Assembly: GCF_002831565.1 (NCBI RefSeq)
Contig: NZ_CP025096.1
Span: 5,248,609-5,312,608 of the forward strand
Direction: 5' to 3'
DNA length: 64,000 nt
Source: Spirosoma pollinicola
GTDB lineage: Bacteria; Bacteroidota; Bacteroidia; Cytophagales; Spirosomataceae
Below are positions 3,135 through 63,666 of the stretch, piece after piece (the stretch's first letter is position 1; each line of letters opens with the position of its first letter). The notes under the pieces were generated by a model that saw nothing but the letters and a program-made list of their open reading frames with translations, had not been told where the DNA came from and searched no databases. The position numbers were made by a program, and so were the translations under genes.

Positions 3135-3254
3135 GCGGTATATGGTTTGACGGTTTATAGTATTCGGTTTACAGTATTCGGGGGCTAGCTCACTGGCAGC
3201 AGCCGCTCCGCTGTAGCGACGAACCGTAAACCAAATACCATAAACCGAATACCG
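3135..3254. repeat. Imperfect intergenic inverted repeat
   Basis: Arms 3159-3182 and 3231-3253 pair with about 4 mismatches (core GTATTCGGTTTA). The left half is internally repetitive (GGTTTANNGTATTCGG-like units). The element fills the spacer between the SDR gene and the MFS gene and ends 3 bp before the SDR stop codon. It is one of the one-strand C-poor hairpins of this window. Confidence 0.6.
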
Positions 3255-3256
3255 TA

Positions 3257-4042
3257 TTATCTGGCTGTCCAGCCGCCGTCTACAGTAAGCATAGAGCCAA
3301 CCATAAAGCTACTGGCGTCGCTGGCCAGAAAAATAGCCGCGCCCTGAATCTCCCGCAAATGACCCCACCGACCTAGGGCGGTAGCACCCACCACAAACTT
3401 CAACCCCTCTTCGGTATCGGCGATGGGCAGGTTCATTTCGGTTAGAAAGGGACCGGGGCAAATAGCATTCACGTTGATGTTGAAGGGGGCCAGCTCCAGC
3501 GCGAGGGCGCGGGTCATCTGCACAACGGCCCCTTTGCTGGAGGTGTAGGGCGTGCGGTTCGATAGTCCAACCAGACCGAGTGTGCTGGCTAGATTGATGA
3601 TACTGCCCCGCCCAGCTTTTTTCATAATCGGTGTAACGGCCCGGCAGCAAAGCCAGGTGCCAGTTACATTGACCTCCATTACTTTACTGAAGTCTTCCGG
3701 CGTCAGCTCGTCGATGGCCCCGCGAATGTTGATTCCGGCGCTGTTGATTAGAATATCGACAGTACCAAACGCGGCTACGGCTGCGTTAACCATCGCTTCG
3801 GCCTGATCGGTCTTTGAAATATCGGCGGCAAACGAAATGGCTTTTATGCCATAATCGGTGCTCAATTCCTGAGCCGCTGCTGCGCCTTCATCAGCATTGC
3901 GGTTTACTAACATGACATTGGCCCCTGCCGAGGCTAATCCGGCTGCCATAGCAAGCCCAAGTCCTTTGGAGCCACCCGTAATGATGGCCGATTTTCCGGT
4001 AAGGTCAAATTGTTTGATGCCCGGAAGTAGTTCTTTACTCAT
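3257..4042 (-). CDS. SDR family oxidoreductase (gluconate 5-dehydrogenase-like)
   Basis: A 261-residue classical short-chain dehydrogenase, probably cytoplasmic because no signal peptide is present. The nucleotide-binding motif TGGSKGLG is at residues 22-29, NSAG at 100-103, and the catalytic Ser153, Tyr166 and Lys170 are in YTSSK context. The C-terminus ends in the family-typical substrate region with GSMLTVDGGW. Closest family feel is gluconate 5-dehydrogenase or 2-deoxy-D-gluconate 3-dehydrogenase, which interconvert aldonates and keto-aldonates; the exact substrate is not readable. It sits between an MFS sugar-acid transporter and a sugar isomerase/epimerase on the same strand, separated from each by a long inverted repeat. 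Confidence 0.9.
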   Translation of the reverse strand: MSKELLPGIKQFDLTGKSAIITGGSKGLGLAMAAGLASAGANVMLVNRNADEGAAAAQELSTDYGIKAISFAADISKTDQAEAMVNAAVAAFGTVDILINSAGINIRGAIDELTPEDFSKVMEVNVTGTWLCCRAVTPIMKKAGRGSIINLASTLGLVGLSNRTPYTSSKGAVVQMTRALALELAPFNINVNAICPGPFLTEMNLPIADTEEGLKFVVGATALGRWGHLREIQGAAIFLASDASSFMVGSMLTVDGGWTAR

Positions 4043-4102
4043 TTTTGATTGTTAAGGGTTGTATTAGTCTGGGCCAAGCCAGAGTGACAGTACTCTTGGC
4101 TA

Positions 4103-4221
4103 TTTTGTCATCCCGACGAAGGACCGGGCCGCCGGAGCGGGGATCTTCGGAGAAATGGAAAACTTCGCCTTCACCGAAGATCCCCGCTCCGGCGGCCCGG
4201 TCCTTCGTCGGGATGACAAAA
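4103..4221. repeat. Perfect 48-bp inverted repeat
   Basis: Arms 4103-4150 and 4174-4221 are perfect reverse complements over 48 bp, separated by 23 bp. The arms are GC-rich (GACCGGGCCGCCGGAGCGGG region). It lies between the sugar isomerase/epimerase gene (stop at 4229) and the SDR gene (start 4042). It is the longest perfect palindrome in the window. Confidence 0.95.
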
Positions 4222-9889: not shown

Positions 9890-9970
9890 TATGTATGGGC
9901 CAAGCTCCAGGTTGGCCTCAGGTGTTAGATTTTGAAGTTCAAGGCCAAGTTCCAGCTTGGCCCATACATA
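9890..9970. repeat. Intergenic inverted repeat (GGCCAAGCT type)
   Basis: The outer arms (TATGTATGGGCCAAGCT, starting 9890, ending 9970) are perfect over 17 bp, with partial pairing inwards (TTGGCCT). Each arm also folds on itself, for example GGCCAAGTTCCAGCTTGGCC. It lies between two FAD oxidoreductase genes and stops 6 bp before the start of the second. Confidence 0.8.
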
Positions 9971-9976
9971 CCCTGG

Positions 9977-11701
9977 ATGAATCGACGACATTTTATTGAA
10001 CGTTTATCTCTCAGTAGCGGAGCGGCCTTAACCGTTCCACTATTTTCATTTCCGGATACTGCAACTGCACAAACACACGGGTTGCTAAATCGATCAAGTC
10101 AGGCCGAACGAGCCGCCGATGTGGTTATTGCCGGTGGCGGACTGGGCGGTTGTGCCGCTGCGCTGGCCGCTCTTCGGAATAAGTTAACGGTGATCCTGAC
10201 CGAAGAAACCGACTGGATTGGGGGCCAGATGACCCAACAGGGCGTACCACCCGACGAACACCAGTGGATTGAAACCCACGGAGCAACCCAGCTTTACCGC
10301 GATTTTCGGACAGCCATCAGGGACTATTACAAACAGCATTACCCGCTGACAGATGCCGCCAAAGTCAGCAAATTCCTGAATCCGGGCGATGGGGCAGTTT
10401 CCCGTTTGTGTCACGAGCCGAAGGTAGCGTTGGCGGTTCTGGAGCAGATGATGGCCCCATACCTGAGTTCCGGCCAGTTGACACTATTTCTCGAACATAA
10501 AATCACCGGAGCCGATGTGCAGGGCGACCGGGTGCGGGCGCTAAAAACCGTCAGCCAGCGCACGGGCAAGGAAATCATTCTCACAGCGCCCTATTTTGTA
10601 GATGCTACCGAACTGGGTGATTTATTGCCGTTAACCGGCACCGAATTCGTGACCGGAACCGAATCGCAACGCGAAACGCGGGAGTTGCACGCGCCCGAAA
10701 AAGCTGACCCCAACAACTGTCAGGCGTTTACCATGTGCTTTGCGATGGATTACGTTGCGGGAGAGAATCACGTCATCGACAAACCCAAAGAGTGTGATTT
10801 CTGGCGAAATTATGTCCCCAGGGTCACGCCAGTCTGGTCGGGCAAATTGCTTGACTTGTCCTATTCGAACCCTAAAACACTGGAGCCCAAACAGCTGGGT
10901 TTTCACCCGGAAGGTATTGCCACGGGCGATAAACTAAACCTGTGGAACTACCGCCGGATGATTAGTAAAGCCAATTTCAGGCCGGGCGCGTATATAGGTG
11001 ATATTTCTGGTGTTAACTGGCCACAGAATGACTACACGATGGGCAATTTGATTGGGGCCACCGACAGGGAGTTTAAAAAACACGTTGAGCGGGCCAAACA
11101 AGTAAGCTTGTCACTGCTCTACTGGCTGCAAACCGAAGTTCCGCGCCCGGATGGCGGACAAGGCTGGCCCGGTATCCGCTTTCGACCCGACATTATGGGC
11201 ACTGAGGACGGTTTGGCTAAATACCCCTATGTCCGCGAATCCCGTCGGATTAAAGCGGTGTTTACCGTTCTCGAAGAGCACGTTGGAGCCGAGAATCGTG
11301 CATTAATGACGGGCAAAAAGGAAGGCAATACATCCGCCGAATTTTACGATAGCGTCGGTGTAGGCTATTACCACATTGATTTACACCCCAGCACCGGCGG
11401 TAATAACTACATCGACTTTGGGTCATTGCCGTTCCAGATTCCGTTAGGAGCCCTGTTGCCCAAACGCATGGAAAACCTGTTGCCCGCCAACAAAAACATT
11501 GGCACGACGCATATCACGAATGGTTGCTACCGGCTGCACCCCGTAGAGTGGAGTATTGGCGAAGCGGCAGGCATGCTCGTCGCCTATTCGCTCAACAAAA
11601 AAGTCATACCCCGTGCCGTTCGGGAGAAGGAGCAACATTTGGCTGACTTCCAGAAAATGATCCGCTCGCAGGGCATCGAAACCCACTGGCCGAAAGTGTG
11701 A
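9977..11701 (+). CDS. Tat-exported FAD-dependent oxidoreductase
   Basis: A flavoprotein of 574 residues from the ATG at 9977. I chose this start because it gives MNRRHFIERLSLSSGAALT, a Tat signal, while an upstream ATG at 9932 lies inside the inverted repeat. The FAD fold is marked by DVVIAGGGLGGCAAALAALR and TDWIGGQMTQQG. The C-terminal part, with NTSAEFYDSVGVGYYHID and TNGCYRLHP, fits the FAD_oxidored family. It is only distantly similar to its upstream neighbour, so the pair probably does related but different periplasmic oxidations. The Tat signal suits a cofactor-loaded enzyme. The substrate is unknown. Confidence 0.87.
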   Translation: MNRRHFIERLSLSSGAALTVPLFSFPDTATAQTHGLLNRSSQAERAADVVIAGGGLGGCAAALAALRNKLTVILTEETDWIGGQMTQQGVPPDEHQWIETHGATQLYRDFRTAIRDYYKQHYPLTDAAKVSKFLNPGDGAVSRLCHEPKVALAVLEQMMAPYLSSGQLTLFLEHKITGADVQGDRVRALKTVSQRTGKEIILTAPYFVDATELGDLLPLTGTEFVTGTESQRETRELHAPEKADPNNCQAFTMCFAMDYVAGENHVIDKPKECDFWRNYVPRVTPVWSGKLLDLSYSNPKTLEPKQLGFHPEGIATGDKLNLWNYRRMISKANFRPGAYIGDISGVNWPQNDYTMGNLIGATDREFKKHVERAKQVSLSLLYWLQTEVPRPDGGQGWPGIRFRPDIMGTEDGLAKYPYVRESRRIKAVFTVLEEHVGAENRALMTGKKEGNTSAEFYDSVGVGYYHIDLHPSTGGNNYIDFGSLPFQIPLGALLPKRMENLLPANKNIGTTHITNGCYRLHPVEWSIGEAAGMLVAYSLNKKVIPRAVREKEQHLADFQKMIRSQGIETHWPKV

Positions 11702-11803
11702 TTAAGTACCAAACAGCTTCCAGCTGTTTGAGCCGTAGGCTAAGTTAGATGGCACATTAGCCGCTTCGCGGCTCAAACAGCTGGAAACTGTTTGGTACTT
11801 AAT
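11702..11803. repeat. GGCTAA-core inverted repeat, AACAGC variant
   Basis: The arms ATTAAGTACCAAACAGC.TTCCAGCTGTTTGAGCC (left from 11702, right ending 11803) match with one mismatch over about 33 bp. Each arm contains the palindrome AAACAGCTTCCAGCTGTTT. The inner edges carry GCCGTAGGCTAA and TTAGCCGCTTCGCGGC. A close copy lies at 34651-34746. Confidence 0.92.
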
Positions 11804-11862
11804 CATACCTAAACCCTTCTCCCATTTACCTGTCTAATCGGCAATTCACTTATCTAAACTGA

Positions 11863-13680: not shown

Positions 13681-13683
13681 ATT

Positions 13684-13836
13684 GGCGCGGGTGTTCAGTG
13701 ATCTGGCGCGGGTATTTACCCGTGCCTTCTCATATAGCAAGCCGGTCCGGCGCCCCGGTTCGCTTGCGTCAGTGAATACTGACTTCATTAAAAGGCACGG
13801 GTAAATACCCGCGCCAGATCACTGAATACCCGCGCC
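13684..13836. repeat. GGCGCG family inverted repeat between convergent genes
   Basis: 45-bp arms (13684-13728 and 13792-13836) match at 44 of 45 positions. They contain CGGGTATTTACCCG, itself a palindrome. The 63-bp centre contains CAGTGAATACTGACTTCATT, whose reverse complement recurs in the element at 26022-26123. It lies between the convergent GH20 and SGNH genes and probably ends both transcripts. Confidence 0.95.
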
Positions 13837-13848
13837 AGACTCTAAGTA

Positions 13849-20742: not shown

Positions 20743-20825
20743 AACACAGAGATACGGAGGGTATCACAGAGAATACGGAGAAGACTTCTCTGTTATCTCC
20801 GTGCTGTTCTCCGTATCTCTGTGTT
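20743..20825. repeat. Intergenic inverted repeat between susD and the FG-GAP gene
   Basis: Perfect 17-bp outer arms (AACACAGAGATACGGAG at 20743-20759, complement at 20809-20825). Looser internal pairing includes a second CACAGAGAATACGGAG unit. It may act as a terminator or attenuator after the susCD transcript. Confidence 0.85.
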
Positions 20826-20837: not shown

Positions 20838-23800
20838 ATGAAATCCATAGGCTATTCGTTTCTCTTCCTGATTGTTTTCGCGTCCTGCGACAGCCAGGAT
20901 ACGCTGTTTGAGAAATTGCCCTCGGCCCAAACCAATATCACGTTCAAAAATGCACTGGAAGAAGCCCCCGATTTTAATGTACTGAAATACGGCTATTTCT
21001 ACAACGGTGGGGGCGTAGCTGCGGCTGATTTTAATAATGATGGCTTGACGGATTTGTACTTCACGGGCAATCTAAGTCCCAACAAACTCTATCTGAATAA
21101 AACCGAACCCGGTTCCGGCAAACTAACTTTCGACGATATCACTGAAAAAGCCGGTGTTGGGGCTGCTGATGGCTGGAACACGGGCGTCTCGGTCGTTGAC
21201 ATCAATGCCGATGGCTGGCTCGATCTGTATGTGTGCCGATCAGCCGCTACAGACGCCAGACTGCGCCGTAATCTGCTCTTCATCAATAATAAAGATTTCC
21301 GGGATGGAGGTCCAACATTTACGGAGAAAGCCGCCGAGTATGGTCTCGATGATCCGGCGTATTCAACCCAGGCCGCTTTCTTCGATTACGATCGGGATGG
21401 CGATCTGGATTGCTTTCTGCTCAATCACTCGGTGCAGGAGTATGCGGGTTTTAGCCGCATGATCAGCGATTTCAAACAGCAAACGAACGCCAATTATGCC
21501 AGCAAACTTTACCAGAATCAGAACGGTAAGTTTGTGGATGTGTCGGCCTCGGCGGGCATGGTTTCCAACGTGCTGAGCTTTGGACTGGCCGTGGCTGTAA
21601 CCGATTTCAACAACGATGGCTGGCTCGATTTCTATGTCTCCAACGATTACAACGAGAACGATTATCTCTACATCAACCAGCAGGATGGAAAATTCAAGGA
21701 GGTCGTTCGGGATGCTATGGGCCACACGTCGCTCTATTCGATGGGGTCCGATGCCGCCGATGTGAACAACGACGGTCGAATCGACCTGCTCACGCTCGAC
21801 ATGCTCCCCGAACGCAATGAGCGCATCAAATTGACTTCTGGTGATGACAATTACGACAAGTATACCCAGTTGCTCCGGTCGGGTTTCCACCACCAGACCA
21901 TGCGCAATATGCTTCAGTTGAATGTGGGCGAGGAGGGAGGAAAGGGAGTAGGGGGAGGAAAGGGACGAGAGGAAAAAAACAGCAGCAATTCCCTCTCGTC
22001 CCTTTCTTCCCCTTCCTCCCCCTCTTCCCTTCCCCTTTTCAGCGAAATTGGCCAGATGGCGGGCATTTCCAATACCGACTGGAGCTGGGCGGGGTTATTT
22101 GCCGATTTCGATAATGATGGCTGGAAAGATCTGTTCGTGACCAACGGCTATGCCCGCGATTATACCAACATGGAGTTCCTGAAGTTCACGATGGATGAGC
22201 AGTTGAAAGCGCGTCAACCGGGAGCTCAACCGACTTCGATGGACCCTATGGCCGTAATCGCCAAGATGCCGAGCATCAATGAGCCGAACTTCATATACCG
22301 AAATTCGGGGAAGCTGACTTTTACGAACGAAACCAAAGACTGGGGATTTGACGAGCCAACGCAGTCAAACGGGGCGGTGTATGCTGATTTAGACAACGAT
22401 GGTGACCTGGACTTAGTCATCAACAACGTGAATGCCGAAGCAGGTATCTACGAAAACCATTCCGACAAAAAAGCACAGAATCACCATTTATCACTTCAAC
22501 TAAAAAGCCCGAATCCTGCCTACCTGATGGGCGCACGGGCAACCGTCTGGGCTGGTGGACGGATGCAGGCGCAGGACTTCATGCCGGTACGGGGTTTTCA
22601 GTCGGCCATGTACGGCCCGTTGCTGTTTGGGTTAGGTAAAGCAACATCTGTCGATTCGGTGTCGATTCGCTGGGCCGATGGGAAAACACAGTTTGTGCGG
22701 CCCAAAGCAGGTAACCAACTCACGATTACCTATGCGCCAACGACTGATACCCCTTCGTCTGTTTTGCAAACGCCCTTTTGGCAGGCTATCAGTGGACTGA
22801 ACTGGACGCATCAGCAGGAGTCTATCAATGATTTCAAAATTCAGCCTTTGCTGCCGTATATGCTGTCGCCAACGGGGCCTTATTTTGCCGTTGGCGATGT
22901 GAATGGGGATGGACGCGACGATGTGTTTGCCGGTGGCGGACGCGGTCAGGGTGGGCAAGTGCTGATTGGCGGCACTAGCGGCTTTACGCCTATGTCTCAA
23001 CCCGCATTGCTTGCCGACCGGGCTTGTGAAGACGCTGGAGCGGACTGGGTTGATGTAGATGGTGACAAGGATCTGGATTTGGTTGTGAGTAGCGCTGGCT
23101 ACGAACTCCCCGTTGACGACGCCCGGTTGCAAGTCCGCCTGTACCTGAACGATGGCAAAGGACACCTGACGAAAGCACCGAATTTCCCCAATTTACAGGT
23201 GAGCGCATCCTGCGTTCGGTCGGGCGATGTGGATGGCGATGGCGACCTCGACCTGTTCATTGGCGCTCGGGTGGTGCCGGGTAACTACCCTGAAACACCC
23301 GTTAGTCACCTCTTGATAAATGATGGGAAAGGGCGTTTCTCGGATGTGACTGGTCAGCAACCCGCGCTGGCTCAGCTTGGCATGGTTACGGATGCCGCGC
23401 TTGCCGATCTTACCCGCGACGGTCGGCCGGAGTTGATTGTGGCTACCGACTTTGGTCCGGTACAGGCTTTCTCGTTTCAACAGGGACAACTGCAACGGCT
23501 CAACAATGGACTCTCGGCCATAACGGGTTGCTGGAATCGGTTGTTGGTTCAGGATTTCGATAAAGACGGCAATCCCGACATAATAGCGGCCAACGCTGGT
23601 CTGAACAGCCAGTTTCAGGCTACTGATGATCGGCCGTTGACGCTGTACGGGATTAAAAACGTGGCCGGGAATTTACTGCCTATCCTATCAGGCTACGACC
23701 GGAATAACAAAGCCGACAAACAGCCGCACCCGTTCAACGCACGCGATGAAATGCTTGATCAAGTGGTGAGCTTGCGGAAGAAATTCACCGATTACACCAC

Positions 23801-24251
23801 TTATTCGAAGGCTAATATTACTGATTTATTTGAGCCGGACGAGCTGAAACGGGCGCAGAAACTTGACGCAACGACCCTACAAACGGTGTTGTTCCGCAAT
23901 AGTGGCGGAACAAATGCCAAATTTACCAGCCAGCCGTTACCCATTGAAGCCCAGATGGCTCCGGCTTATGCGCTAGCGGCTATCGATGTCAATCGCGATG
24001 GATTACCCGACTTAATTATTGGCGGAAATCGCGAGTACAACCGTGTTCGGTTAGGCAAGGACGATGCCAATCGGGGGCAATTGTTCCTGAATCAGGGGAA
24101 AGGGCGTTTCACTTATGTGCCAATGGCGCAATCGGGCTTAGAGTGGAACGGCGATGTGCGTGACATTACTCCTGTACAGGTGGCCGGGCGTACCGAGTTA
24201 TTGATTGGGACTACGGGGCAAGCTGTGCGGGTGTTTGAGTTGGTGAGGTGA
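20838..24251 (+). CDS. FG-GAP/VCBS repeat lipoprotein with ASPIC/UnbV domain (CRTAC1-like)
   Basis: A 1137-residue exported lipoprotein (lipobox Cys17, IVFASC). It is built of FG-GAP/VCBS beta-propeller repeats, each with a calcium-binding DxNxDG-type loop, such as DFNNDGLTDLY, DINADGWLDLY and DVNNDGRIDLL. An ASPIC/UnbV domain lies around residues 545-635 (GARATVWAGGR to SIRWADGKT). A second set of FG-GAP repeats fills the C-terminal half. Such proteins often follow SusCD pairs and are thought to sit at the cell surface; the exact role is unknown. Residues about 365-399 are an abnormal Gly/Glu/Lys then Ser/Pro/Leu low-complexity insert encoded by a palindromic DNA element (see 21926-22040), placed exactly where relatives have a short loop before FSEIGQ. 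Confidence 0.9.
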   Translation: MKSIGYSFLFLIVFASCDSQDTLFEKLPSAQTNITFKNALEEAPDFNVLKYGYFYNGGGVAAADFNNDGLTDLYFTGNLSPNKLYLNKTEPGSGKLTFDDITEKAGVGAADGWNTGVSVVDINADGWLDLYVCRSAATDARLRRNLLFINNKDFRDGGPTFTEKAAEYGLDDPAYSTQAAFFDYDRDGDLDCFLLNHSVQEYAGFSRMISDFKQQTNANYASKLYQNQNGKFVDVSASAGMVSNVLSFGLAVAVTDFNNDGWLDFYVSNDYNENDYLYINQQDGKFKEVVRDAMGHTSLYSMGSDAADVNNDGRIDLLTLDMLPERNERIKLTSGDDNYDKYTQLLRSGFHHQTMRNMLQLNVGEEGGKGVGGGKGREEKNSSNSLSSLSSPSSPSSLPLFSEIGQMAGISNTDWSWAGLFADFDNDGWKDLFVTNGYARDYTNMEFLKFTMDEQLKARQPGAQPTSMDPMAVIAKMPSINEPNFIYRNSGKLTFTNETKDWGFDEPTQSNGAVYADLDNDGDLDLVINNVNAEAGIYENHSDKKAQNHHLSLQLKSPNPAYLMGARATVWAGGRMQAQDFMPVRGFQSAMYGPLLFGLGKATSVDSVSIRWADGKTQFVRPKAGNQLTITYAPTTDTPSSVLQTPFWQAISGLNWTHQQESINDFKIQPLLPYMLSPTGPYFAVGDVNGDGRDDVFAGGGRGQGGQVLIGGTSGFTPMSQPALLADRACEDAGADWVDVDGDKDLDLVVSSAGYELPVDDARLQVRLYLNDGKGHLTKAPNFPNLQVSASCVRSGDVDGDGDLDLFIGARVVPGNYPETPVSHLLINDGKGRFSDVTGQQPALAQLGMVTDAALADLTRDGRPELIVATDFGPVQAFSFQQGQLQRLNNGLSAITGCWNRLLVQDFDKDGNPDIIAANAGLNSQFQATDDRPLTLYGIKNVAGNLLPILSGYDRNNKADKQPHPFNARDEMLDQVVSLRKKFTDYTTYSKANITDLFEPDELKRAQKLDATTLQTVLFRNSGGTNAKFTSQPLPIEAQMAPAYALAAIDVNRDGLPDLIIGGNREYNRVRLGKDDANRGQLFLNQGKGRFTYVPMAQSGLEWNGDVRDITPVQVAGRTELLIGTTGQAVRVFELVR
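21926..22040. repeat. Palindromic element inserted in frame in the FG-GAP gene
   Basis: A purine-only left half (about 21926-21972) pairs with a pyrimidine-only right half (about 21991-22040). The inner 14 bp AAAGGGACGAGAGG match perfectly, and the remainder matches with small gaps. It encodes about 35 residues without a stop. The composition is unlike the host gene and like the C-poor hairpins found in nearby spacers. Confidence 0.85.
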
Positions 24252-24354
24252 TGGACCGGTTTACCACACAATTTAATTTTGACAATTTTATAATTTACCC
24301 ATGATTAACCTTACCACCTACTATCCACCAGTCTTTTTACTATGATTTTCTGAT

Positions 24355-24367
24355 ATTAACTGTTAAT
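24355..24367. promoter_or_regulatory. ATTAAC-T-GTTAAT palindrome upstream of the sigma factor
   Basis: A perfect 13-bp palindrome 28 bp before the predicted sigma start. Its half-sites are the same hexamers as in the palindrome at 15807-15823, in the opposite order. It could be an operator or a chance AT-rich match. The surrounding 24252-24394 spacer has no long inverted repeat, consistent with it being a promoter region. Confidence 0.3.
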
Positions 24368-24394
24368 TTTCCTCTTACAAAAAAGCGGAGTATT

Positions 24395-25003
24395 TTGGAT
24401 CAGCGACATCGTATTATCGAAGAGAACGAATACTTACTAGAACTCTGGCACAAAGCAAAAGCCGGAGATAAGGTGGCCTTTTGCCAACTCGCCGAGAAAC
24501 AGTACCGCTCCTTATTTGCCTACGCCACCAATTTCACGGAAGATCGGGACTTTATAAAAGATTCGATACAGGAAATTTTCATCCGAATCTGGGAGAAACG
24601 GGCTACGATTGACATTCAGTATGTGTCGATTTACCTGTTCAAATCGCTTCGTAATCAGCTCTTGCAGGAATTTCGCCGGAGCAAGCCTGAACGCTCATCC
24701 CTGCACAGTCCAGAAGTAAGTGAACTGTCTGACTGGCAAACGATTGAAACCGAAATAGAACAGGGCGAAACCGATTCAGAAAGCCAGCATAAAGTCCGGC
24801 AAGCTATCAATACGTTGCCGAAACGCCAGCAGGAAGTCGTTTTTCTGAAGTTTTACAACGGGCTTGAAAACGACCAGATTGCCGCATTAATGGAAATAAA
24901 CCGCCAATCGGTGGCCAACCTGTTATACAAAGCGCTTGGGGCGCTCAAAAGCCAGATGGCTTTTTATCAATTCTGGTTGATGGTAAGTTTTATGGCCTGG
25001 TAA
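24395..25003 (+). CDS. ECF-type RNA polymerase sigma factor
   Basis: A 202-residue sigma-70 family factor. Region 2 spans about residues 25-95 (YATNFTEDRDFIKDSIQEIF). Region 4 spans about 130-185, with LPKRQQEVVFLKFYNG and a helix-turn-helix NDQIAALMEINRQSVANLLY. The only plausible start is TTG at 24395, preceded by a GCGGAG ribosome-binding-like site. In Bacteroidota such factors normally sit next to a FecR anti-sigma gene and an STN-type SusC. Here neither is adjacent; the only FecR is at 40685-41806. It follows the susCD/FG-GAP genes on the same strand after a 143-bp spacer, so it probably has its own promoter. Confidence 0.92.
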   Translation: MDQRHRIIEENEYLLELWHKAKAGDKVAFCQLAEKQYRSLFAYATNFTEDRDFIKDSIQEIFIRIWEKRATIDIQYVSIYLFKSLRNQLLQEFRRSKPERSSLHSPEVSELSDWQTIETEIEQGETDSESQHKVRQAINTLPKRQQEVVFLKFYNGLENDQIAALMEINRQSVANLLYKALGALKSQMAFYQFWLMVSFMAW

Positions 25004-25086
25004 CGCGGACATCTTGTCCGCGTAGCCGTAGGCTAACTAGGTGAAATCTTATTTTAGCCTACGGCTACGCGGACAAGATGTCCGCG
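25004..25086. repeat. GGCTAA-core inverted repeat, CGGACA variant, between convergent genes
   Basis: Perfect 33-bp arms (25004-25036 and 25054-25086) around a 17-bp loop. Each arm contains CGGACATCTTGTCCG, itself a palindrome, then TAGCCGTAGGCTAA. The element exactly fills the gap between the sigma factor stop and the TAG stop of the SMP-30 gene; that TAG matches the GTAGCGCGG edge seen in the copies at 27431 and 32567. Confidence 0.96.
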
Positions 25087-26007
25087 CTACTTCTGTTGCA
25101 TAGCCCACTCCCGGCCCGGCGTGTCGACGCGGAAGGTCTCCATATTGCCCTGATCCTGCAACGTAATATAGGCAGTGCGGCCATCTTTGCCGCCAAACGC
25201 AATATTGGTTGGCTTTTGACCCGTCAGCGTTATCTCCTGAATCACCTTCCCTGCGGGCGATACTTTTGCAACGGTGCCTTTGCCGTATCGTACAATGTAC
25301 AGGTTTCCGGTAGCGTCGCAACGCATACCATCCATGCCGAAGTCAGGAAATTCGATGAGTAACCGCTTGTTGCTCACCTGACCACTCGCTGATAAATCAT
25401 ACACCCAAACCTTACGCTGAGCCGACTCATTGACGTATAGTTTTTTGTTGTCAGGGCTTACTTCAATGCCGTTGGTGGTGCCCATATTGGCTTCGAGCAG
25501 CGTCACTTTTCCATCGGTATCAATGCGCCAGATATTGCCGGTATTTTCTTTCCAGTTTGGGTCGCTGGCATACAGTCGACCTTTGCTGTCGATAGCAATA
25601 TCGTTGGGCTGGTTCATGCGGGCTTCATGAGCGAAAACGCTTAGCTTTTTCGTGCCCATAACCACTTTAAGGATGTTGTGCTTTGGGTAATCGGCAATGA
25701 ACATATCGCCCGCTTTATTGAAGCGAATCCCATTGCCAATGCTGCCTTCGGGTAACTCCACAAACACGCTCGCCTGTCCGGTAGGGGTGATCTGTCCAAT
25801 CGTACCCTGCTTGCCAAAATTTACGGCGTAGATCGTTCCTGCTTTATCAACCGCCGGTCCTTCGACTCCCGATGTAAACCCATTAACTGGCGTAAAAACG
25901 CTGGATTTGAAGAGGTCATCCGAAACAGACATACGACTTGCCGATAAGAACAGGATGCTAATAATCAGAAGAGTAAAAGTAATAAATGGGGTTATGCGAG
26001 TTGACAT
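25087..26007 (-). CDS. SMP-30/gluconolactonase family protein, exported
   Basis: A 306-residue six-bladed beta-propeller of the SMP-30/gluconolactonase/LRE family, which hydrolyses aldonolactones with a divalent metal. An N-terminal hydrophobic signal (TPFITFTLLIISILFLSA) indicates export. Family features include GVEGPAVDKAG, NQPNDIAIDSKGRLYASDP, TNGIEVSPDNKKLYVNES and FGMDGMRCDATGNLYI; E52-type, N and D metal ligands are plausible in these blocks. It is the last gene of the long minus-strand run, downstream of an amidohydrolase. In that context it could open lactones made by the quinoprotein or sorbosone-type dehydrogenases in this window. Confidence 0.88.
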   Translation of the reverse strand: MSTRITPFITFTLLIISILFLSASRMSVSDDLFKSSVFTPVNGFTSGVEGPAVDKAGTIYAVNFGKQGTIGQITPTGQASVFVELPEGSIGNGIRFNKAGDMFIADYPKHNILKVVMGTKKLSVFAHEARMNQPNDIAIDSKGRLYASDPNWKENTGNIWRIDTDGKVTLLEANMGTTNGIEVSPDNKKLYVNESAQRKVWVYDLSASGQVSNKRLLIEFPDFGMDGMRCDATGNLYIVRYGKGTVAKVSPAGKVIQEITLTGQKPTNIAFGGKDGRTAYITLQDQGNMETFRVDTPGREWAMQQK

Positions 26008-26021: not shown

Positions 26022-26123
26022 TCTGGCGCGAGCATTTGCTCGTGCCAGTTTATGAAGTCAGTATTCACTGACGCAAGCGAATGCTTGCTTTATTCAAAGG
26101 CACGAGCAAATGCTCGCGCCAGA
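26022..26123. repeat. GGCGCG family inverted repeat, CGAGCA variant
   Basis: Perfect 25-bp arms (26022-26046 and 26099-26123) containing the palindrome CGAGCATTTGCTCG. The 52-bp centre includes GAAGTCAGTATTCACTGACG, the reverse complement of a centre segment of the element at 13684-13836. The arms differ from that copy by matched changes on both sides. Confidence 0.94.
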
Positions 26124-26135: not shown

Positions 26136-27419
26136 CTACGATCTCGGTTGCTGCGTTACGACAACCGGGTTGGCTATGCCGTTCAGGTCATACACAATTT
26201 TGCCTTTGCGAATGGTCATTTCGCATTCCAGCTTTTGTTTGCCCTCGATCTTATGGCCAGTATAATCAAAGAAACCGAAATAACCGGTATCCCGCACCTC
26301 AAATTTGCCCTCATGCAGGTTCAGAATCGCCACATCGGCCACGGAACCAACGGACAAACTGCCCAATTCTGGACGCTTAATGGCTTGTGCCGGACTCCAG
26401 GTGCTGGCTTTAATAACGCTTTGTAAATTCATACCCATTGCCATAAACTTCGACATGACATTGAGCATATCCTTCATGGCGTTGTTCATGCTGCCGGTAT
26501 GAATATCGGTGCTGATCGTGTTGGGGTAAAAGCCGCTCTTGAGAGCCGGGATCGCTTGCGAAAACGCGAAGCTGATGCCGCCATAGCCCACATCAAAAAT
26601 GATCCCTTTCTTCTGGGCTTCCCATACAAACGGCTTCACTTTATTAGTCGTCACATCCAGAATGGGCTCCCGCGTCTTCAACTGGCCAAAGCAATGCGTG
26701 AAGATATCGCCCGGACGAAGCCGCTTCAGAAATAAGTCTTCAATAGACAGGGTTGGGGTGCTGCCGCCGAAGTCGATCATAACGGGAACGTTAGCCAGCT
26801 TTCCGGCTTCCACAGCGCGGTCGGTGGGTGTCCAGTCGTAGCCGTTGAAATGGGCTAACTTTACGCCTACAACCAGTTCGGGGTACTTCTTCGCCATGTC
26901 GGCGGTTTGTTTGGCGTCCATGTCATTGACATTTTGCTCAAACGTTCCACCCCGCATACCGCTCCCGACAATGTTTAGGAGGGCCAGCACACGCGTCTGC
27001 GATCGGTCGATGGTTTGTTCTTTGAATGTTTCAAAATCGCGCCAGCCCGAACAACCCGCATCCACAATGGTCGTTACGCCGTTGCGGAAGGTGAAGCCAT
27101 CGGGCGGGAGTGCGTTGGGACCGTTGCTATAGGTCTGGTCGAGATTTGTGCCAAAAAAGACGTGCGTGTGAATGTCGATGATACCGGGTGTCACGTACAA
27201 TCCTTTGGCATCAACCACCTGAACCGCCCCTTTGGGATCAATAGATTTGGCAACAAGCGCAATTTTGCCATCGGCAATGGCGACGTCCATGATGCCATTG
27301 ATATTGTTTTTCGGGTCGATCACATGCCCGCCTTTGATAACGACGCTGTACGGTTGCGCGACGACAAGTTGACTCAGCGCATAGCAAAGGGAGAAGAGAA
27401 TTAGGAAGGTTTTTTTCAT
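26136..27419 (-). CDS. Exported amidohydrolase/deacetylase (cog3964-like), copy 1
   Basis: A 427-residue amidohydrolase-superfamily enzyme from the ATG at 27419. I chose it because it begins the Sec signal MKKTFLILFSLCYALSQ; an upstream ATG at 27443 lies in a repeat. The metal-binding HxH is H84-H86 in IIDIHTHVFFGT; a candidate bridging Lys lies in VVGVKLAHF and the final metal Asp in STDIHTGSM. It resembles cog3964 proteins, once annotated as dihydroorotases but shown for some members to deacetylate acylated hydroxy or amino acids. It is strongly similar to the copy at 31298-32542. Both lie directly downstream of PLP enzymes, suggesting N-deacylation before ammonia elimination. The substrate is inferred. 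Confidence 0.87.
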   Translation of the reverse strand: MKKTFLILFSLCYALSQLVVAQPYSVVIKGGHVIDPKNNINGIMDVAIADGKIALVAKSIDPKGAVQVVDAKGLYVTPGIIDIHTHVFFGTNLDQTYSNGPNALPPDGFTFRNGVTTIVDAGCSGWRDFETFKEQTIDRSQTRVLALLNIVGSGMRGGTFEQNVNDMDAKQTADMAKKYPELVVGVKLAHFNGYDWTPTDRAVEAGKLANVPVMIDFGGSTPTLSIEDLFLKRLRPGDIFTHCFGQLKTREPILDVTTNKVKPFVWEAQKKGIIFDVGYGGISFAFSQAIPALKSGFYPNTISTDIHTGSMNNAMKDMLNVMSKFMAMGMNLQSVIKASTWSPAQAIKRPELGSLSVGSVADVAILNLHEGKFEVRDTGYFGFFDYTGHKIEGKQKLECEMTIRKGKIVYDLNGIANPVVVTQQPRS

Positions 27420-27430
27420 AGTTGAGGGGA

Positions 27431-27504
27431 GTAGCGCGGACATCTTGTCCGTGTAGCCGCAGGCTTGAATTGTTACGGCTACACGGACAAGATATCCGCG
27501 CTAC
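27431..27504. repeat. GGCTAA-core inverted repeat, CGGACA variant
   Basis: The 29-bp arms (27431-27459 and 27476-27504) begin GTAGCGCGGACATCTTGTCC and match with one mismatch. The central GGCTAA part is shortened to AGGCTTG. It is placed between the PLP enzyme stop (27506) and the amidohydrolase start. Confidence 0.92.
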
Positions 27505-27505
27505 A

Positions 27506-28726: not shown

Positions 28727-28789
28727 GGGAAGGGAAACGGTTAAGAGTTTTGTTTTTGGAAGCTGTCGCGTGGCGTCCATGCTACAGAA

Positions 28790-31134: not shown

Positions 31135-31278
31135 ACCACCCCCAACCCCCTCCTAAAACAGGAGGGGGCTATGCCAAAGGGGATTCCACTCTCGGTTCCA
31201 CTTATAATAGGAGGGAACTAGAACAAGAATACCCCGTTACAAAGCCCCCTCCTGTTTTAGGAGGGGGTTGGGGGTGGT
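31135..31278. repeat. CCCCTCCT family inverted repeat
   Basis: Perfect 36-bp arms (31135-31170 and 31243-31278), each containing the palindrome CCCCTCCTAAAACAGGAGGGG. The roughly 72-bp centre (CTCGGTTCCACTTATAA...) is conserved in the copy at 45667-45802. It lies between the amidohydrolase (copy 2) and the dehydrogenase gene. Confidence 0.96.
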
Positions 31279-32542: not shown

Positions 32543-32566
32543 GGGTAAAGGGTATCTGGTATGTAG

Positions 32567-32663
32567 CGAGTAGCGCGGACATCCTGTCCGCGTAGCCGTA
32601 GGCTAAAATACGGCTTGAGATGGTTAGCCTACGGCTACGCGGACAAGATGTCCGCGCTACTCG
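32567..32663. repeat. GGCTAA-core inverted repeat, CGGACA variant
   Basis: 40-bp arms (32567-32606 and 32624-32663), 39 of 40 identical, beginning CGAGTAGCGCGGACATC and ending TAGCCGTAGGCTAA. It stops at the stop codon of the PLP enzyme (32664). It is nearly identical to the element at 25004-25086. Confidence 0.96.
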
Positions 32664-33887
32664 TTACACGGCTGCTTTCGTAAATTCTTCTTTCAGCCTT
32701 GCCGCTACGATCTTATCTTGGCCGGGCTTCAGCATCCATGTCGTCATACTGATGCCAGTTGGTTCGCCGACGACTTCGATGGATGGGTTTCCATTACGTA
32801 GATTTTCCTGTAATGTTTTGGTAGTCAGGTTGATCTTGCCCGTATCCCAGGTGACGCGCATCGTCGGTGTGTGATTGCCTAAGGGTGGCGCATAGGTTTC
32901 GACGGTGATACCGTTGATACCTTTCACCGCCCCCGAAATGGTGGCTACCCGGTCTTCCAGTATTTTCCACTCTTTCTGATGATCGGTGGCGATGAATTTG
33001 TCGAGGGCGACGTACATCCCCAAGATTTCTTCTTTGTTGACTTTCATGCCCCGGCCAATGGTCGACCCGCGTGGCGGCATACTGAGCCGGGCGGCTGCGA
33101 TGTACTGCTTTTTGCCCATCAACAAGCCAGCACTTTGTGGACCGCGCATGGCTTTACCACCCGATACGCAGACCAGATCGAACCCCATGTCATTGAATTT
33201 CCAGAGATTTTCAACGGGAGGCACATCGGCGGCAATGTCGATCATGGTAGGGATATTGTGCTTCTTGCCCAGATTTACCCATTCCTGATGCTGAATTTTA
33301 CCCTTATCGGACTGGATGTTCAGGAACCAGAGCAAGGCAGTTTTGTCGTTTATCGCTTTCTCGGCTTCTTCCAGCGTTTCTACCTGAATGATTTTACAAC
33401 CCGTATTAGTCAGGGCGTGCGAATAGCCAATGTTGTGCGCTTTTTGGGCAATCACTTCCGATTTCATATCGGTGCCTTCGAGGTGCGGGAGTAGTTCCAC
33501 TTTTTTCTGATCCATGCCCGTAAGCACGCCCGCCAGCCCCAGCGTCATGGCCGAGAAACAGCCCGCCGTAACCACCGCCGATTCGGCATGAGTCAGGGCG
33601 GCAATTTTTTCGCCCACTTTGGTCTGCACATCATCGAGCATGACGAACTCTTTCGACGATGCATTGATCGTTTCAACAACGTCATCTTCCATGAGCGAAC
33701 CCGTCATGGCGGTGTAAGTGCCAGCTGCGTTGATGAACGTGCGGAGACCTAATTCTTTCAGTACATTCCGTGAAGCAGCTTTGGCCGGAGCCGCCAAAAC
33801 CGATTGCAAAGGAACTGCACTACCAAAAAGACCGCCGAGTAACGGCATCGCCGATAGGTGTTTAATGAGGGTTCTTCTATTGATCAT
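32664..33887 (-). CDS. Tat-exported SelA/DgaE-like PLP enzyme, copy 2
   Basis: A 407-residue fold-type I PLP enzyme from the ATG at 33887, which gives the Tat signal MINRRTLIKHLSAMPLLGG. A further in-frame ATG at 33920 would overlap the upstream gene by 4 bp and add a non-signal leader. The Schiff-base lysine is Lys245 in SGGKAMRGPQSAGLLMGKK, identical to the block in copy 1. The same reaction class is expected: deamination of an amino sugar acid or similar compound in the periplasm. It follows the CBM9-like gene by 29 bp, and together with RidA (34755) and the amidohydrolase (31298) forms the second module. Confidence 0.87.
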   Translation of the reverse strand: MINRRTLIKHLSAMPLLGGLFGSAVPLQSVLAAPAKAASRNVLKELGLRTFINAAGTYTAMTGSLMEDDVVETINASSKEFVMLDDVQTKVGEKIAALTHAESAVVTAGCFSAMTLGLAGVLTGMDQKKVELLPHLEGTDMKSEVIAQKAHNIGYSHALTNTGCKIIQVETLEEAEKAINDKTALLWFLNIQSDKGKIQHQEWVNLGKKHNIPTMIDIAADVPPVENLWKFNDMGFDLVCVSGGKAMRGPQSAGLLMGKKQYIAAARLSMPPRGSTIGRGMKVNKEEILGMYVALDKFIATDHQKEWKILEDRVATISGAVKGINGITVETYAPPLGNHTPTMRVTWDTGKINLTTKTLQENLRNGNPSIEVVGEPTGISMTTWMLKPGQDKIVAARLKEEFTKAAV

Positions 33888-34650: not shown

Positions 34651-34746
34651 GTACCGAACAGCTTCCAGCTGTTTGAGCCGAAGGCTAACAATGTCGCTAC
34701 CTTATTAGCCGCTTCGCGACTCAAACAGCTGGAAGCTGTTTGGTAC
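34651..34746. repeat. GGCTAA-core inverted repeat, AACAGC variant
   Basis: Arms 34651-34688 and 34705-34746, GTACC(G/A)AACAGCTTCCAGC..., match with about two mismatches plus inner differences. The palindrome AACAGCTTCCAGCTGTT is present in each arm; inner edges are GAAGGCTAA and TTAGCCGCTTCGCG. It is a close relative of 11702-11803. It lies between RidA copy 2 and the CBM9-like gene. Confidence 0.93.
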
Positions 34747-40574: not shown

Positions 40575-40679
40575 GGTTATTGGTTAAGTGGTTAAATAGT
40601 GGAGTGGTTAATTGGTGGAGTGGTTTTATAGCTTGGTACTATTTAACCACTCCACTATTTAACTACTCCACCAATAACC
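40575..40679. repeat. C-poor inverted repeat between fecR and susC
   Basis: 37-bp arms (40575-40611 and 40643-40679) match at 34 of 37 positions. The left arm is almost free of C and internally repetitive (GTTAAATAGTGGAGTGGTTAA). It lies between the FecR stop codon (40685) and the SusC start, in a roughly 285-bp spacer that probably also holds the susC promoter. Confidence 0.88.
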
Positions 40680-41918: not shown

Positions 41919-42090
41919 ACCCCGGATTGCATCCGGGGCTAACCATAGTCAACCCCTTTGGGGTTGGGGCATTGATGAGAACCCCGGAGGGGTTGACTTT
42001 GGCTAACCCCGGATGCAATCCGGGGTTAGCAGGTACTTCAGGGTATGACAGATGTGCCTTGTGGCAACAACCCCAACGGGGTTGACTATG
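41919..42090. repeat. Three-part inverted repeat upstream of fecR
   Basis: 39-bp arms (41919-41957 and 41988-42026) match at 36 of 39 positions. They begin ACCCCGGATTGCATCCGGGG, itself a palindrome. A third partial arm (AACCCCAACGGGGTTGACTATG, 42069-42090) repeats the inner edge. It lies between the dipeptidase stop and fecR, where a sigma gene would be expected. Confidence 0.9.
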
Positions 42091-43188: not shown

Positions 43189-43294
43189 TGTACCAGACAG
43201 CATCCCTGCTGTCTGAGCGGAAGGCTAAGTGTTAGTGCAGGGAAATTTATCAGCCGCTATCGCGGCTCAGACAGCAGGGATGCTGTCTGGTACA
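43189..43294. repeat. GGCTAA-core inverted repeat, CAGACAGCA variant
   Basis: Perfect 30-bp arms (43189-43218 and 43265-43294, TGTACCAGACAGCATCCCTG...), each holding the palindrome CAGACAGCATCCCTGCTGTCTG. The inner edge reads AGCGGAAGGCTAA. It is related to the element at 63546-63666 and to the short form at 58621-58667. Confidence 0.95.
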
Positions 43295-45666: not shown

Positions 45667-45802
45667 CCACCCCCAACCCCCTCCTAAAACAGGAGGGGGC
45701 AATGCCGAAGGATGTTCCACTCTCGGTTCCACTTATAACAGGAAGGAACTAGAACAAGAATACCCCGTTTCAAAGCCCCCTCCTGTTTTAGGAGGGGGTG
45801 GG
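45667..45802. repeat. CCCCTCCT family inverted repeat
   Basis: Perfect 24-bp inner arms (45677-45700 and 45775-45798) containing CCCCTCCTAAAACAGGAGGGG; the left arm extends outwards to 45667. The centre (CTCGGTTCCACTTATAACAG...) is about 85% identical to that of 31135-31278. Just outside, 45640-45665 is a decayed copy of the GGCGCGGGTATTTACCCG arm. The right arm supplies the stop codon of the aldolase gene. Confidence 0.93.
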
Positions 45803-49771: not shown

Positions 49772-49800
49772 TGATGAGTTTAGGTTGTTAATGGGGTTTT

Positions 49801-49975
49801 ACCACCCCCAACCGAAGCGTTGGACCGTCCCCTCCTAAAACAGGAGGGGGCTTAAACAAGGGTACTCTTGGCACAGTCCCATCTTCATACAGGTGGAGCC
49901 AAGAACAGGCTGCCCCTCAGCATAGCCCCCTCCTGTTTTAGGAGGGGACGGTCCGACGCTTCGGTTGGGGGTGGT
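49801..49975. repeat. CCCCTCCT family inverted repeat with symmetrical arm insertion
   Basis: 52-bp arms (49801-49852 and 49924-49975) match at 51 of 52 positions. Compared with the 36-bp arms at 31135 and 56975, both arms carry the same extra 16 bp (GAAGCGTTGGACCGTC-like) between the CCACCCCCAACC part and the CCCTCCTAAAACAGG palindrome. The centre sequence is unlike the other copies. Confidence 0.95.
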
Positions 49976-49989
49976 GTTTTCAGTAAACA

Positions 49990-51001: not shown

Positions 51002-51107
51002 TGAAGTAGGTGGAGTAGGTGGTGTGAGTGGAGTGGTGCTAGTGGCGTTCCAGGACCCGACACCACTAGCACCACTCCACCACTACTCACTCACACCACT
51101 CACCTCA
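51002..51107. repeat. C-poor inverted repeat after susD
   Basis: A perfect 18-bp core stem (51028-51045 and 51063-51080, GTGGAGTGGTGCTAGTGG) with longer, looser outer pairing. The left arm is a near C-free run of GGTGGAGTA-like units. It abuts the TGA stop of the SusD gene (51105-51107). Confidence 0.85.
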
Positions 51108-56974: not shown

Positions 56975-57150
56975 ACCACCCCCAACCCCCTCCTAAAACA
57001 GGAGGGGGCTATGCCGAAGGGTATCCTTGTCTTTGTCCCGGCAACCTTTATAAGAAAGTTTTCTTACTTCCCCTAAAGACAGGTGGAAACCTTAAAATAG
57101 CTACCCTTATAGAAAGCCCCCTCCTGTTTTAGGAGGGGGTTGGGGGTGGT
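56975..57150. repeat. CCCCTCCT family inverted repeat
   Basis: Perfect 36-bp arms (56975-57010 and 57115-57150), the same as those at 31135. The roughly 104-bp centre is unrelated (GTCTTTGTCCCGGCAACC...). Extra half-copies of the arm tip (TTACCACCCC and GGGGGTGGTAA) lie just outside, as in nested or serial insertion. Confidence 0.95.
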
Positions 57151-63200: not shown

Positions 63201-63409
63201 GAAGCGGTAGCGGGTGCATTGATCGAATAATTACCTGAAGCATCGGTGGCGGTACCTACCGATGTGCCGCCAACTAGAACGTTTACACCGGGCAGTCCCT
63301 CCTTATCGGGTCCGGTTACTCTACCGGTTATTTTGTTCGTCTGGGCAAATGCCAGACTACTACACACGAGTAGATGAAAAAGTAGAATTAGAGCTTTGTT
63401 CATGTTCAA
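60272..63409 (-). CDS. SusC/RagA-type TonB-dependent outer-membrane transporter
   Basis: A 1045-residue SusC-like transporter (start 63409, or 63403 two codons on). Signal LILLFHLLVCSSLAFAQ, regulatory-like domain (GRVTGPDKEGLPGVNVLVGG), TonB-box-like region (DEVIVTALGIKKEAKTLGYA), plug (IRIRGQSSFSGQNNPLIVVN, ALYGSRAKDGVVMITTK), and a barrel ending IGFNLNVRF. It has no STN domain. With the SusD at 58689 it leads a unit ending in the ManD- and DgoD-like dehydratases. Its N-terminal domain is strongly similar to that of the 52605-55595 transporter, while the barrels differ, suggesting related but distinct ligands. Confidence 0.96.
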   Translation of the reverse strand: MNMNKALILLFHLLVCSSLAFAQTNKITGRVTGPDKEGLPGVNVLVGGTSVGTATDASGNYSINAPATASLIFSYISYVSQTVPINNRSIVNVQLIEDAKAIDEVIVTALGIKKEAKTLGYATATVNADQISVNRTPNFVSGLQGKMAGVNITTMGTGPAGTAKIRIRGQSSFSGQNNPLIVVNGVPIDNSNYSLGGDFGSRAANSSDGGDGLSSINPDDIETMTVLKGATAAALYGSRAKDGVVMITTKSRGAGKGYSVTYNTNFTTDTPLDFTDFQYEYGQGEGGKRPTTPDPTSGVWSFGEKFQPGMTQVLFDNKTYPYEPVYNRVKQFYRVGTNFTNTVTVANNGQNGGFSLSFGNTDNKGIMENNTFNRKVINLGFTQNITSKLTASGNINYSKENNINPPQLNTQDFSVSTVVFTLANSMPFDALRDNQTKPNGDEYVFSRFLVRNNPYYSMSRHFENIRRDRLFGNVALKYQFTDWLYLQARIAQDYYIRNQDYNIPNGYAPIAKAPVGYVNGSYTQDVRQNTERNLDFILGANKTFGKIGVDITLGGNARYARNDYNSVTVQDFVTPGLYTVANGRIKNPIYALAEKNINSLFGAATLSYRDYMFLNVTARNDWFSTLAPANRSILYPSVTSSFVFSQAFENLPPWLSFGKLRAAYAQVGSDNVDPYSNALYYAVDNNSFPNPSGQLVPVGGINATVVPNKNLRPLRIQEAEVGLELKLFNSKLGLDFTYYHKTTDDQILAAQISDASSYTSKLINVGRSMNQGLEILLTGSPVVSQNFRWDVSANVSYNTSKVLRLGLSPNDTVITVNSGGGRTLNQVVGKPIGQLYTFTYLRDAQGRQVFDQNSGMPLRNNTLKNVGNALPTYFGGITNTFTYRGISLSALIDFKLGHKMIAGRNINYMRHGLSKRTLPGRDVGYVIGNGVNPNGEINQTKAAVQPFYESINPLGINEDFVFNAGFWKLRQVSLGYDFSKLLPQGLFIKGLKLNAVANNVLIIKKWTENMDPEEALVSSDNGVGLDFWPGLPPTRSIGFNLNVRF

Positions 63410-63545
63410 TAGAGATTAAGGTTTAAAAGGCAAAATCATCCATTTATATCAATACTTTAAATTGATATAATTACAATTTACGGGGGCTCTGAAAATGACT
63501 CCTCAATCCAGCTATAAGGTCGGATTTTGTATGGTTTTGGTAGTC

Positions 63546-63666
63546 GTATCAGACAGCATCCTGCTGTCTGGCCGTCAGGCTAAAAAATGACCACAAGTAG
63601 TCAAATCCCAATGGGTAAGTAGTGTATTTTAGCCTAACGGCCAGACAGCAGGATGCTGTCTGATAC
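63546..63666. repeat. GGCTAA-core inverted repeat, CAGACAGCA variant
   Basis: 40-bp arms (63546-63585 and 63627-63666), 39 of 40 identical, beginning GTATCAGACAGCATCC. The palindrome CAGACAGCATCCTGCTGTCTG is followed by GCCGTCAGGCTAA. It sits between the third dehydratase-like gene and susC. The rest of the 63410-63676 spacer is AT-rich and shows no gene. Confidence 0.95.

Follow-up and report, generated by a model that had tools for sequence, protein, structure and literature searches.

Families of short inverted-repeat elements in the gene spacers of Spirosoma pollinicola, most of them paired with a small gene of the HUH-Y1, nuclease-family or four-helix type

The inverted repeats (IRs) that lie between the genes of a 64,000-nucleotide stretch of the Spirosoma pollinicola chromosome (the window; C1:5248609-5312608, GC 51%) resemble several described systems, the closest of which is the REPIN-RAYT system. 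According to the literature (PMC3733652, PMC6006769, PMC8049555), REPINs are inverted pairs of palindromes in spacers that share their palindromes with a low-copy HUH-Y1 gene, the RAYT, and that prefer 3' spacers. GTAG-type REPs often supply stop codons (PMC3733652), and RAYTs are single-copy and vertically kept (PMC8049555). In rRNA intervening sequences (IVSs), an S23p open reading frame (ORF) lies in an IR stem by GACAGAT heptamers, as described for Coxiella, and they are regarded as selfish and possibly mobile (PMC4990558). Miniature inverted-repeat transposable elements (MITEs) are gene-less IR derivatives of a gene-carrying element. Short mobile spacer hairpins also occur as double-hairpin elements in fungal mitochondria, organellar genomes that also contain homing-endonuclease genes; we know of no fixed pairing of arms and nuclease there. 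VsrA, a protein of the Vsr-like DUF559 nucleases, is responsible for the DNA-damage response seen in a methylase mutant of Caulobacter, and the part of that report available to us does not mention dispersed IRs with VsrA (PMC12907096). CACAGAG words, TGTCATCCCGACG, and CCCCTCC..GGAGGGG repeats recur as dispersed repeats in these genomes. In the open-access literature searched, no paper names an agent for them, and none ties DUF559, GxxExxY, GIY-YIG, or four-helix genes to dispersed spacer IRs.

The best reading of the window is that several short-IR families coexist there, most of them linked to their own small gene. A preliminary description had taken the IRs for structures of the REP type acting at 3' ends, which is partly right and too narrow. 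With a probability of roughly 70%, short non-autonomous mobile elements from several unrelated families fill the spacers, and for most of these families the chromosome has elsewhere a small gene flanked by the same kind of repeat. Families B, C, D, and X, about half of the window elements, join REPIN-RAYT as new members. In contrast, the partners of families A, E, F/H, and G are DUF559 (Vsr-like PD-(D/E)XK), GIY-YIG, GxxExxY (PDDEXK_3), and four-helix (S23/IVS-type) genes, and the arms of E, F, and G are not self-palindromic. The REP reading is supported for B, C, D, and X and is not supported for A, E, F, and G. The palindromic arms reported earlier are found in the Y1-linked families and family A and not in E, F, and G.

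Family G is kin to the rRNA IVSs, as its PF05635 four-helix ORF lies within an IR beside short words. Whereas known IVSs reside in rRNA genes, the G genes and gene-less pairs read here lie in spacers that separate protein genes, apart from one IR located within such a gene. All three four-helix genes of this genome lie between protein genes, and the rRNA genes were not searched for more copies. Unlike the parents of MITEs, the partner genes do not encode DDE or other classical transposases, and target-site duplication is not established. No classical transposase was seen on the flanks read, the genome-wide transposase search having covered PF01797 only.

Arm families and the small genes that share them

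Family A is of the type CCACCCCCAACCCCCTCCTAAAACAGGAGGGGG, family B of GTAGCGCGGACATCTTGTCCGCG, family C of GTACCAGACAGCATCCTGCTGTCTG, family D of GGCGCGAGCATTTGCTCGTGCC together with GTCAGTATTCACTGAC, family E of TTTTGTCATCCCGACG..GGATCTTCGG, and family X of ACCCCGGATTGCATCCGGGG together with AGTCAACCCC. In families F and G, short words (CACAGAG; GTGGAGTGG) are strung together imperfectly. The outermost arm end is constant among the copies read.

Outside the window, a 131-amino acid (aa) DUF559 gene (C1:325841-326149; structure relative 3hrl) is flanked by two family-A pairs, and the repeat encodes its last residues. Because of this arrangement, the other families were examined for non-HUH partners, using profile searches of this genome (PF04480, PF13366, PF01541, and PF05635) and reading of the flanks. 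The DUF559 gene L049 is enclosed by one IR of the CCCTCACCCCAACCCCTCTCCC type, the GIY gene L058 lies between two full family-E pairs, the GxxExxY genes L052, L053, L054, and L056 adjoin H- or F-type words (L053 on one side only), and G-type words border each of the three four-helix genes on either side. On the flanks read, family words are absent at the degenerate copies L051 and L055, with a trace at L057. Family-E flanks are lacking at the GIY-YIG matches L059-L062, which include a uvrC-like one and were dismissed as partners of family E. IRs of at least 15 that span the gene are present at 2/3 DUF559, 3/3 four-helix, 2/6 GxxExxY, and 1/5 GIY-YIG genes of this genome, compared with 3 of 162 control genes.

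The preliminary description had suggested that a RAYT/Y1 gene be sought elsewhere in the genome, and four HUH-Y1 genes flanked by palindromes of window kinds are indeed present. PF01797 matches seven places, none of them in the window, so that the reported lack of a transposase there holds as far as searched; a protein search adds three more Y1 loci. L005 sits between B palindromes, L004 adjoins C, L003 adjoins D on one side, and L002 adjoins X. The palindromes of L006/L028 (GTAGTACCGACCGTCCCGGTCGG) and L007 (a double palindrome) are of kinds that recur in the chromosome samples L010 and L024 and not in the window, L030 and L033 have palindrome kinds of their own, and L036 is decayed and bare. 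The HUH and Y motifs are found without a stop in the matched stretch at nine Y1 loci, and 8 of the 10 loci have a cross-gene IR of at least 15, versus the same 3/162 control genes. With respect to the GT[AG]G foot, B shows GTAG/GTAA, C starts with GTAC/GTAT, and D and X show neither. Inverted pairs of B, C, D, and X number 10 in the window, and more occur in the chromosome samples.

Two of the Y1 loci, L001 (C1:3768279-3768623) and L002 (C1:1045471-1045812), show subclass-1.2-like motifs (DHIH with YILNQ/YIKKQ) and cross-gene inverted repeats, and the L002 kind recurs as family X. Since PMC6006769 lists subclass 1.2 without REPs, the repeats that flank these two genes are a small novelty.

A single RAYT kind serving all families was rejected: A, E, F, and G pair with non-Y1 genes, their arms are class-specific, and no window element of these four families matches Y1 flanks above shuffles.

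The pairing extends to a sample of 121 genomes of the same family, this genome included. Candidate partner genes are common there: PF05635 is found in 111 genomes, PF13366 in 88, PF04480 in 58 (large proteins included), and the GIY type in 45. The search gave loci for the best-scoring matches only, and the genes of this genome were included; the DUF559 set comprised 29 of these best-match loci, 20 further ones added for their short frames, and two own genes. Frames that ran off the locus, exceeded 200 or fell below 60 aa, or lay near a contig end were excluded, and the broken L051, L055, and L057 were not entered, leaving 32/51 DUF559, 33/34 GxxExxY, 26/30 GIY, 30/33 four-helix, and 30/30 HxlR loci, HxlR being the sole control family. 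A cross-gene IR of at least 15 was found at 18/32 standalone DUF559, 20/26 GIY, 20/33 GxxExxY, and 25/30 four-helix genes and at 0/30 HxlR genes. The other control, background genes of 80-200 aa from five genomes, reached 15 in 4 and 17 in 2 of 366 cases; the top-scoring one is itself a PF05635 four-helix gene and the second an IS1 transposase. This contrast is stable at thresholds of 13-20, with or without coding bases. Large DUF559-domain proteins (17 loci) were set aside. Four of them, measurable across the gene, score 10-13, and the other thirteen ran off the locus, three of these with IRs of 18-48 beside the domain.

The arm sequence is specific to the class of the enclosed gene. Among 95 distinct genes with detectable arms, the nearest-neighbor arm belongs to the same gene class in 86 cases, and in 76 when pairs with at least 70% protein identity are barred (24% expected by chance; at most 41% in 2000 permutations). 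In every class, the more alike two proteins are, the more alike are their arms (Mantel p 0.0145, 0.0055, 0.0005, and 0.0005).

Like-worded arms were also found on plasmid records of other phyla, sampled from environmental organisms by choice (7/39 DUF559 and 3/8 GxxExxY records). They enclose 5 of the 6 solo DUF559 genes fetched (Cyanobacteriota, Pseudomonadota, and Deinococcota) and 2 of the 3 GxxExxY genes (Gemmatimonadota and other Cytophagales). The two exceptions are the genes from Synechocystis B12 and Persicobacter; arms are also lacking at a large DUF559 protein fetched with them.

At L038:1800-2195, the family-A repeat itself encodes the C-terminal TTPNPLLKQEGA of the DUF559 protein. 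Because the repeat can be read as protein in this way, similar tails of database proteins may be translated repeats.

Elements of the window and their density in the chromosome

With gene calls made for this analysis and IRs scored as +1 per match and -2 per mismatch, an IR of at least 14 is present in 21 of the 23 codirectional or convergent window spacers longer than 75 bp, in 0/2 divergent spacers, and in 0/4 spacers of 40-75 bp. The two exceptions are 24252-24394 (score 6) and 35214-35374 (score 12). One dinucleotide shuffle per spacer gave an IR in 0/29 window spacers and 0/265 spacers of the genome sample; one 2.1-kb spacer was left out of these counts. The earlier count of 22 intergenic elements was thus right within one, with the terminator-like hairpin at 1722-1760 among the 21, and their confinement to nondivergent spacers longer than about 75 bp is borne out. 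A separate search for IR pairs of at least 18 nucleotides detected 31 in the window, 25 of which were listed. The absence of IRs from susC-susD type junctions is uninformative, because these gaps of 9-20 bp are too short. A scan of the window with the Rfam covariance models gave no match at gathering thresholds.

The statement that nearly every such spacer is filled applies to the window and not to the chromosome, where 52 of 169 comparable spacers in twenty evenly spaced 20-kb samples contain an IR. The difference (p = 2.5e-8) is biased, since the window was chosen in the preliminary description for its density. In the 20 kb adjoining the window on either side, IRs occur in 2/5 and 5/9 spacers. 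The window is a dense patch of a genome-wide phenomenon: the 400 kb of samples hold 43 IRs of at least 18, which by a very rough extrapolation corresponds to ∼950 in the genome. An assembly artefact is unlikely, as the genome is one contig of 8,794,837 bp and congeners show the same kinds of elements.

Window IRs were assigned to families by comparison with gene arms from other genomes and with the Y1 flanks of this genome, using 20 shuffles each. Matches above shuffles were obtained for 13 of the 21 (four DUF559, one GIY, and eight Y1), and two further elements were placed in family C by likeness to other C copies. The earlier figure of at least three unrelated families was an understatement, as the window elements form at least seven groups. 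The features follow in window coordinates, none with an assigned strand; "match" gives the score against gene arms or flanks versus the best shuffle.

4103..4221, family E element (GIY-YIG class) with 52-bp arms; IR score 49, match to GIY-gene arms of other genomes 19 versus 12
31135..31278, family A element (DUF559 class); score 36, match 36 versus 12
45678..45797, family A element (DUF559 class); score 23, match 23 versus 12
49801..49975, family A element (DUF559 class), both arms bearing a mirrored insert; score 49, match 24 versus 13
56975..57150, family A element (DUF559 class); score 36, match 36 versus 12
25000..25090, family B element (Y1 gene L005) that includes the stop codons of both convergent genes; score 34, match 20 versus 12
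27431..27504, family B element (Y1 gene L005); score 26, match 19 versus 11
32562..32668, family B element (Y1 gene L005) that includes the stop codon of gene 32664-33920; score 39, match 21 versus 13
11699..11805, family C element (Y1 gene L004); score 34, match 14 versus 12
34651..34746, family C element by likeness to C copies; score 24, no gene-flank match above shuffles
43189..43294, family C element by likeness to C copies, 30-bp perfect arms; no match above shuffles, single C palindrome in two relatives
63546..63666, family C element (Y1 gene L004); score 37, match 17 versus 13
13683..13837, family D element (Y1 gene L003); score 43, match 17 versus 14
26022..26123, family D element (Y1 gene L003); score 25, match 14 versus 12
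41919..42026, family X element (Y1 gene L002, subclass-1.2-like); score 32, match 25 versus 14, family X in two relatives
20743..20825, family F element (GxxExxY class), assigned on word type alone; score 17, best match GxxExxY 9 versus shuffle 11, not significant
40575..40679, family G element (four-helix class), assigned on word type alone; score 28, best match four-helix 11 versus shuffle 11
51028..51080, family G element (four-helix class), assigned on word type alone; score 18, not above shuffles
21934..22030, G-like IR from the window IR search, in frame within coding sequence 20838-24251
3151..3247, IR without family match; score 16, no match above shuffles to the gene flanks examined
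9890..9970, IR without family match; score 17, no match above shuffles to the gene flanks examined
1722..1760, bidirectional terminator-like hairpin outside the mobile set; score 18, A-run in the left arm and T-run in the right arm

Gene 20838-24251, which hosts the IR at 21934-22030, encodes a VCBS/ASPIC-type protein. In an alignment of 62 homologues, the insert at this loop varies greatly in length and is missing in three; several of the inserts resemble translated purine/pyrimidine word repeats. Small GC-rich GGACCGCCGAAGCGG-like inserts occur at mirrored arm positions in 49801-49975, 4103-4221, L023:16169-16281, and L353. They span elements of different families and another species and may be a tiny repeat of their own. 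The region 26136-33920 contains two amidohydrolase and two SelA/DgaE-like genes in repeated order, so that this catabolic cluster looks duplicated.

Turnover, rival explanations, and meaning

Eight window spacers were compared with their orthologues in one to seven relatives each, the nearest record being S. fluviale (89% identity for one window protein). In spacer 45671-45787, the A element found here corresponds to a D element in two relatives and to an E-like IR in another; two more relatives have other IRs there, and two lack any. Spacer 49772-49989 contains a 175-bp A element here and family C in S. fluviale; five other relatives have none, the counterpart being 21, 44, and 39 bp long in three, 86 bp without an IR in one, and replaced by an overlap of the genes in another. 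One element also differs between copies within the genome. A single 148-bp family-A element is all that separates two copies that match perfectly over 268 and 249 bp; GGGGGTGG stands at either edge of the filled copy, and the difference is a recent insertion or loss. The locus L051 (C1:8774348-8774533) is a second, truncated DUF559 copy with its upstream flank, ∼0.5 kb of which is identical, and lacks the 148-bp element. The GIY gene occupies the same place in four Spirosoma genomes, a constancy like that of RAYTs, and two DUF559 pairs and one GxxExxY pair are likewise syntenic; the four-helix genes compared share no common place.

Several results weigh against mobile families with partner genes. 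Element classes were counted in other genomes with motif rules written after the families were known, and these rules miss or misfile some elements: in this genome, they overlook L015 (E) and L023 (F) and file the B element L018 as F. By these rules, G004 has E-type elements although no GIY gene was found in it, and its DUF559 gene is not accompanied by any A-type element in 400 kb of its sequence. G089 and G114, which have neither DUF559 nor GIY genes, show no A, E, or F by the rules, and elements that look F-like by eye (L353 in G004 and L361 in G089) are missed. Elements are present in 7/8 cells with the gene and 1/7 without it (p = 0.010), and the contrast shrinks to 7/9 and 1/6 (p = 0.041) if a weak GxxExxY match of G089 is counted as a gene. 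For the F and G elements in the window, the family is assigned by word type alone. Some spacers are stable: the two nearest relatives both have X at 41807, C at 43204, and G at 50980, and one of them also has A at 56892. Recombination between the 8-bp GGGGGTGG repeats could have removed an element and so produced the 148-bp difference, and no target duplication is established, as the GGGGGTGG that borders the filled copy on both sides also forms the end of the element itself.

The purpose proposed in the preliminary description was termination of transcription or stabilization of mRNA, and IRs could indeed be mainly such 3'-end devices, bidirectional or stabilizing, selected for structure rather than sequence, with the small genes incidental. 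This would fit their placement. In pooled samples of five genus genomes, IRs of at least 18 occupy 53/162 convergent, 68/749 codirectional, and 8/241 divergent spacers, and 28 of 40 codirectional IRs lie closer to the upstream stop than to the downstream start (medians 13 versus 26 bp, p = 0.006). Moreover, hairpins occur in 25-37% of convergent spacers in all five genomes, including those poor in the families, so that part of them are probably ordinary terminators. However, a terminator-like TTTT at the 3' end is present in only 7/61 IRs of at least 18, with the opposite T..A polarity in 9/61; the intrinsic terminator was therefore rejected as a general reading and retained for 1722-1760. Orthologous spacers often hold an element of another family or none at all, and an arm sequence specific to the class of the enclosed gene is not predicted by 3'-end devices. 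Thus, the avoidance of divergent spacers stands, whereas the evidence for the proposed purpose is weak. We regard 3'-end devices as an unlikely main explanation; the bias may reflect tolerance more than terminator function.

It is similarly improbable that ordinary transposases not found here move the repeats, the nuclease and four-helix genes being captured passengers. The putative nature of the enzymatic link and the repeats without a found gene in some genomes (family E in G004) would suit passengers. Against this, the same gene class recurs between arms of like wording in distant genomes and in other phyla, several of the genes are single and syntenic, DUF559, GxxExxY, and GIY-YIG are DNA-nuclease families, and the Y1 families provide a known parallel in which the same layout carries its own enzyme. 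Least probable, and by a clear measure, is a local origin without mobile elements, in which replication slippage or template switching would form the IRs at short quasi-palindromes. It draws on the likeness of arms within an element (identity 0.92-0.93, compared with 0.79-0.85 between elements; 13, 5, 3, and 3 elements of families A, E, C, and B, no significance test, one chance pair, L009, in the A list), on inserts mirrored in both arms (49801, 4103, and L023), on arms that extend 25, 32, and 29 bp past the usual family end in three elements (L040 and two in L014), and on the low-complexity words of family G. Yet it leaves unexplained the dispersed families with fixed ends (family-A cores number 65 on each strand, with 0 in the reversed-pattern control), the pairing with particular genes, and the clean 148-bp difference. 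Arm-to-arm copying would explain the mirrored inserts and extended arms, the latter also being explicable by insertion into an existing hairpin, and in-place copying may form part of how arms remain alike.

If the spacers are occupied by mobile families, B, C, D, and X would be REPINs working with RAYT-type HUH-Y1 enzymes, and the full form of A, E, F/H, and G would consist of one or more arms, a small gene, and the inverted arm or arms. The partner protein would recognize the hairpin or cruciform of its own arms in single-stranded DNA and nick or break DNA at these arms or at a target. The nuclease class of the DUF559, GxxExxY, and GIY-YIG partners follows from family membership, and cleavage of their own arms is putative. 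Repair synthesis would then copy the arm pair to a new site, and one arm onto the other, so that the arms stay alike. Insertions would survive mostly behind stop codons, which is why the families would share the same spacers. The evidence leans toward the RAYT being one of at least five unrelated protein types, the others being DUF559, GxxExxY, GIY-YIG, and the S23/IVS four-helix protein, each of which would keep its own short-IR population with its own conserved arm wording, with DUF559 and GxxExxY pairs spanning several phyla and the families contesting the same 3' spacers.

These results suggest that several different proteins each keep a tiny mobile-element family going. As each dispersed repeat is tied to a nuclease or four-helix gene, movement becomes directly testable. 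If the reading is true, three large orphan-nuclease families and the IVS protein would gain a common function, giving DUF559, GxxExxY, and S23p proteins a role, and many unexplained dispersed repeats of bacteria would gain an agent. The RAYT-REPIN principle would then reach beyond HUH enzymes, and bacterial spacers would be ground contested by several families of mini-elements.

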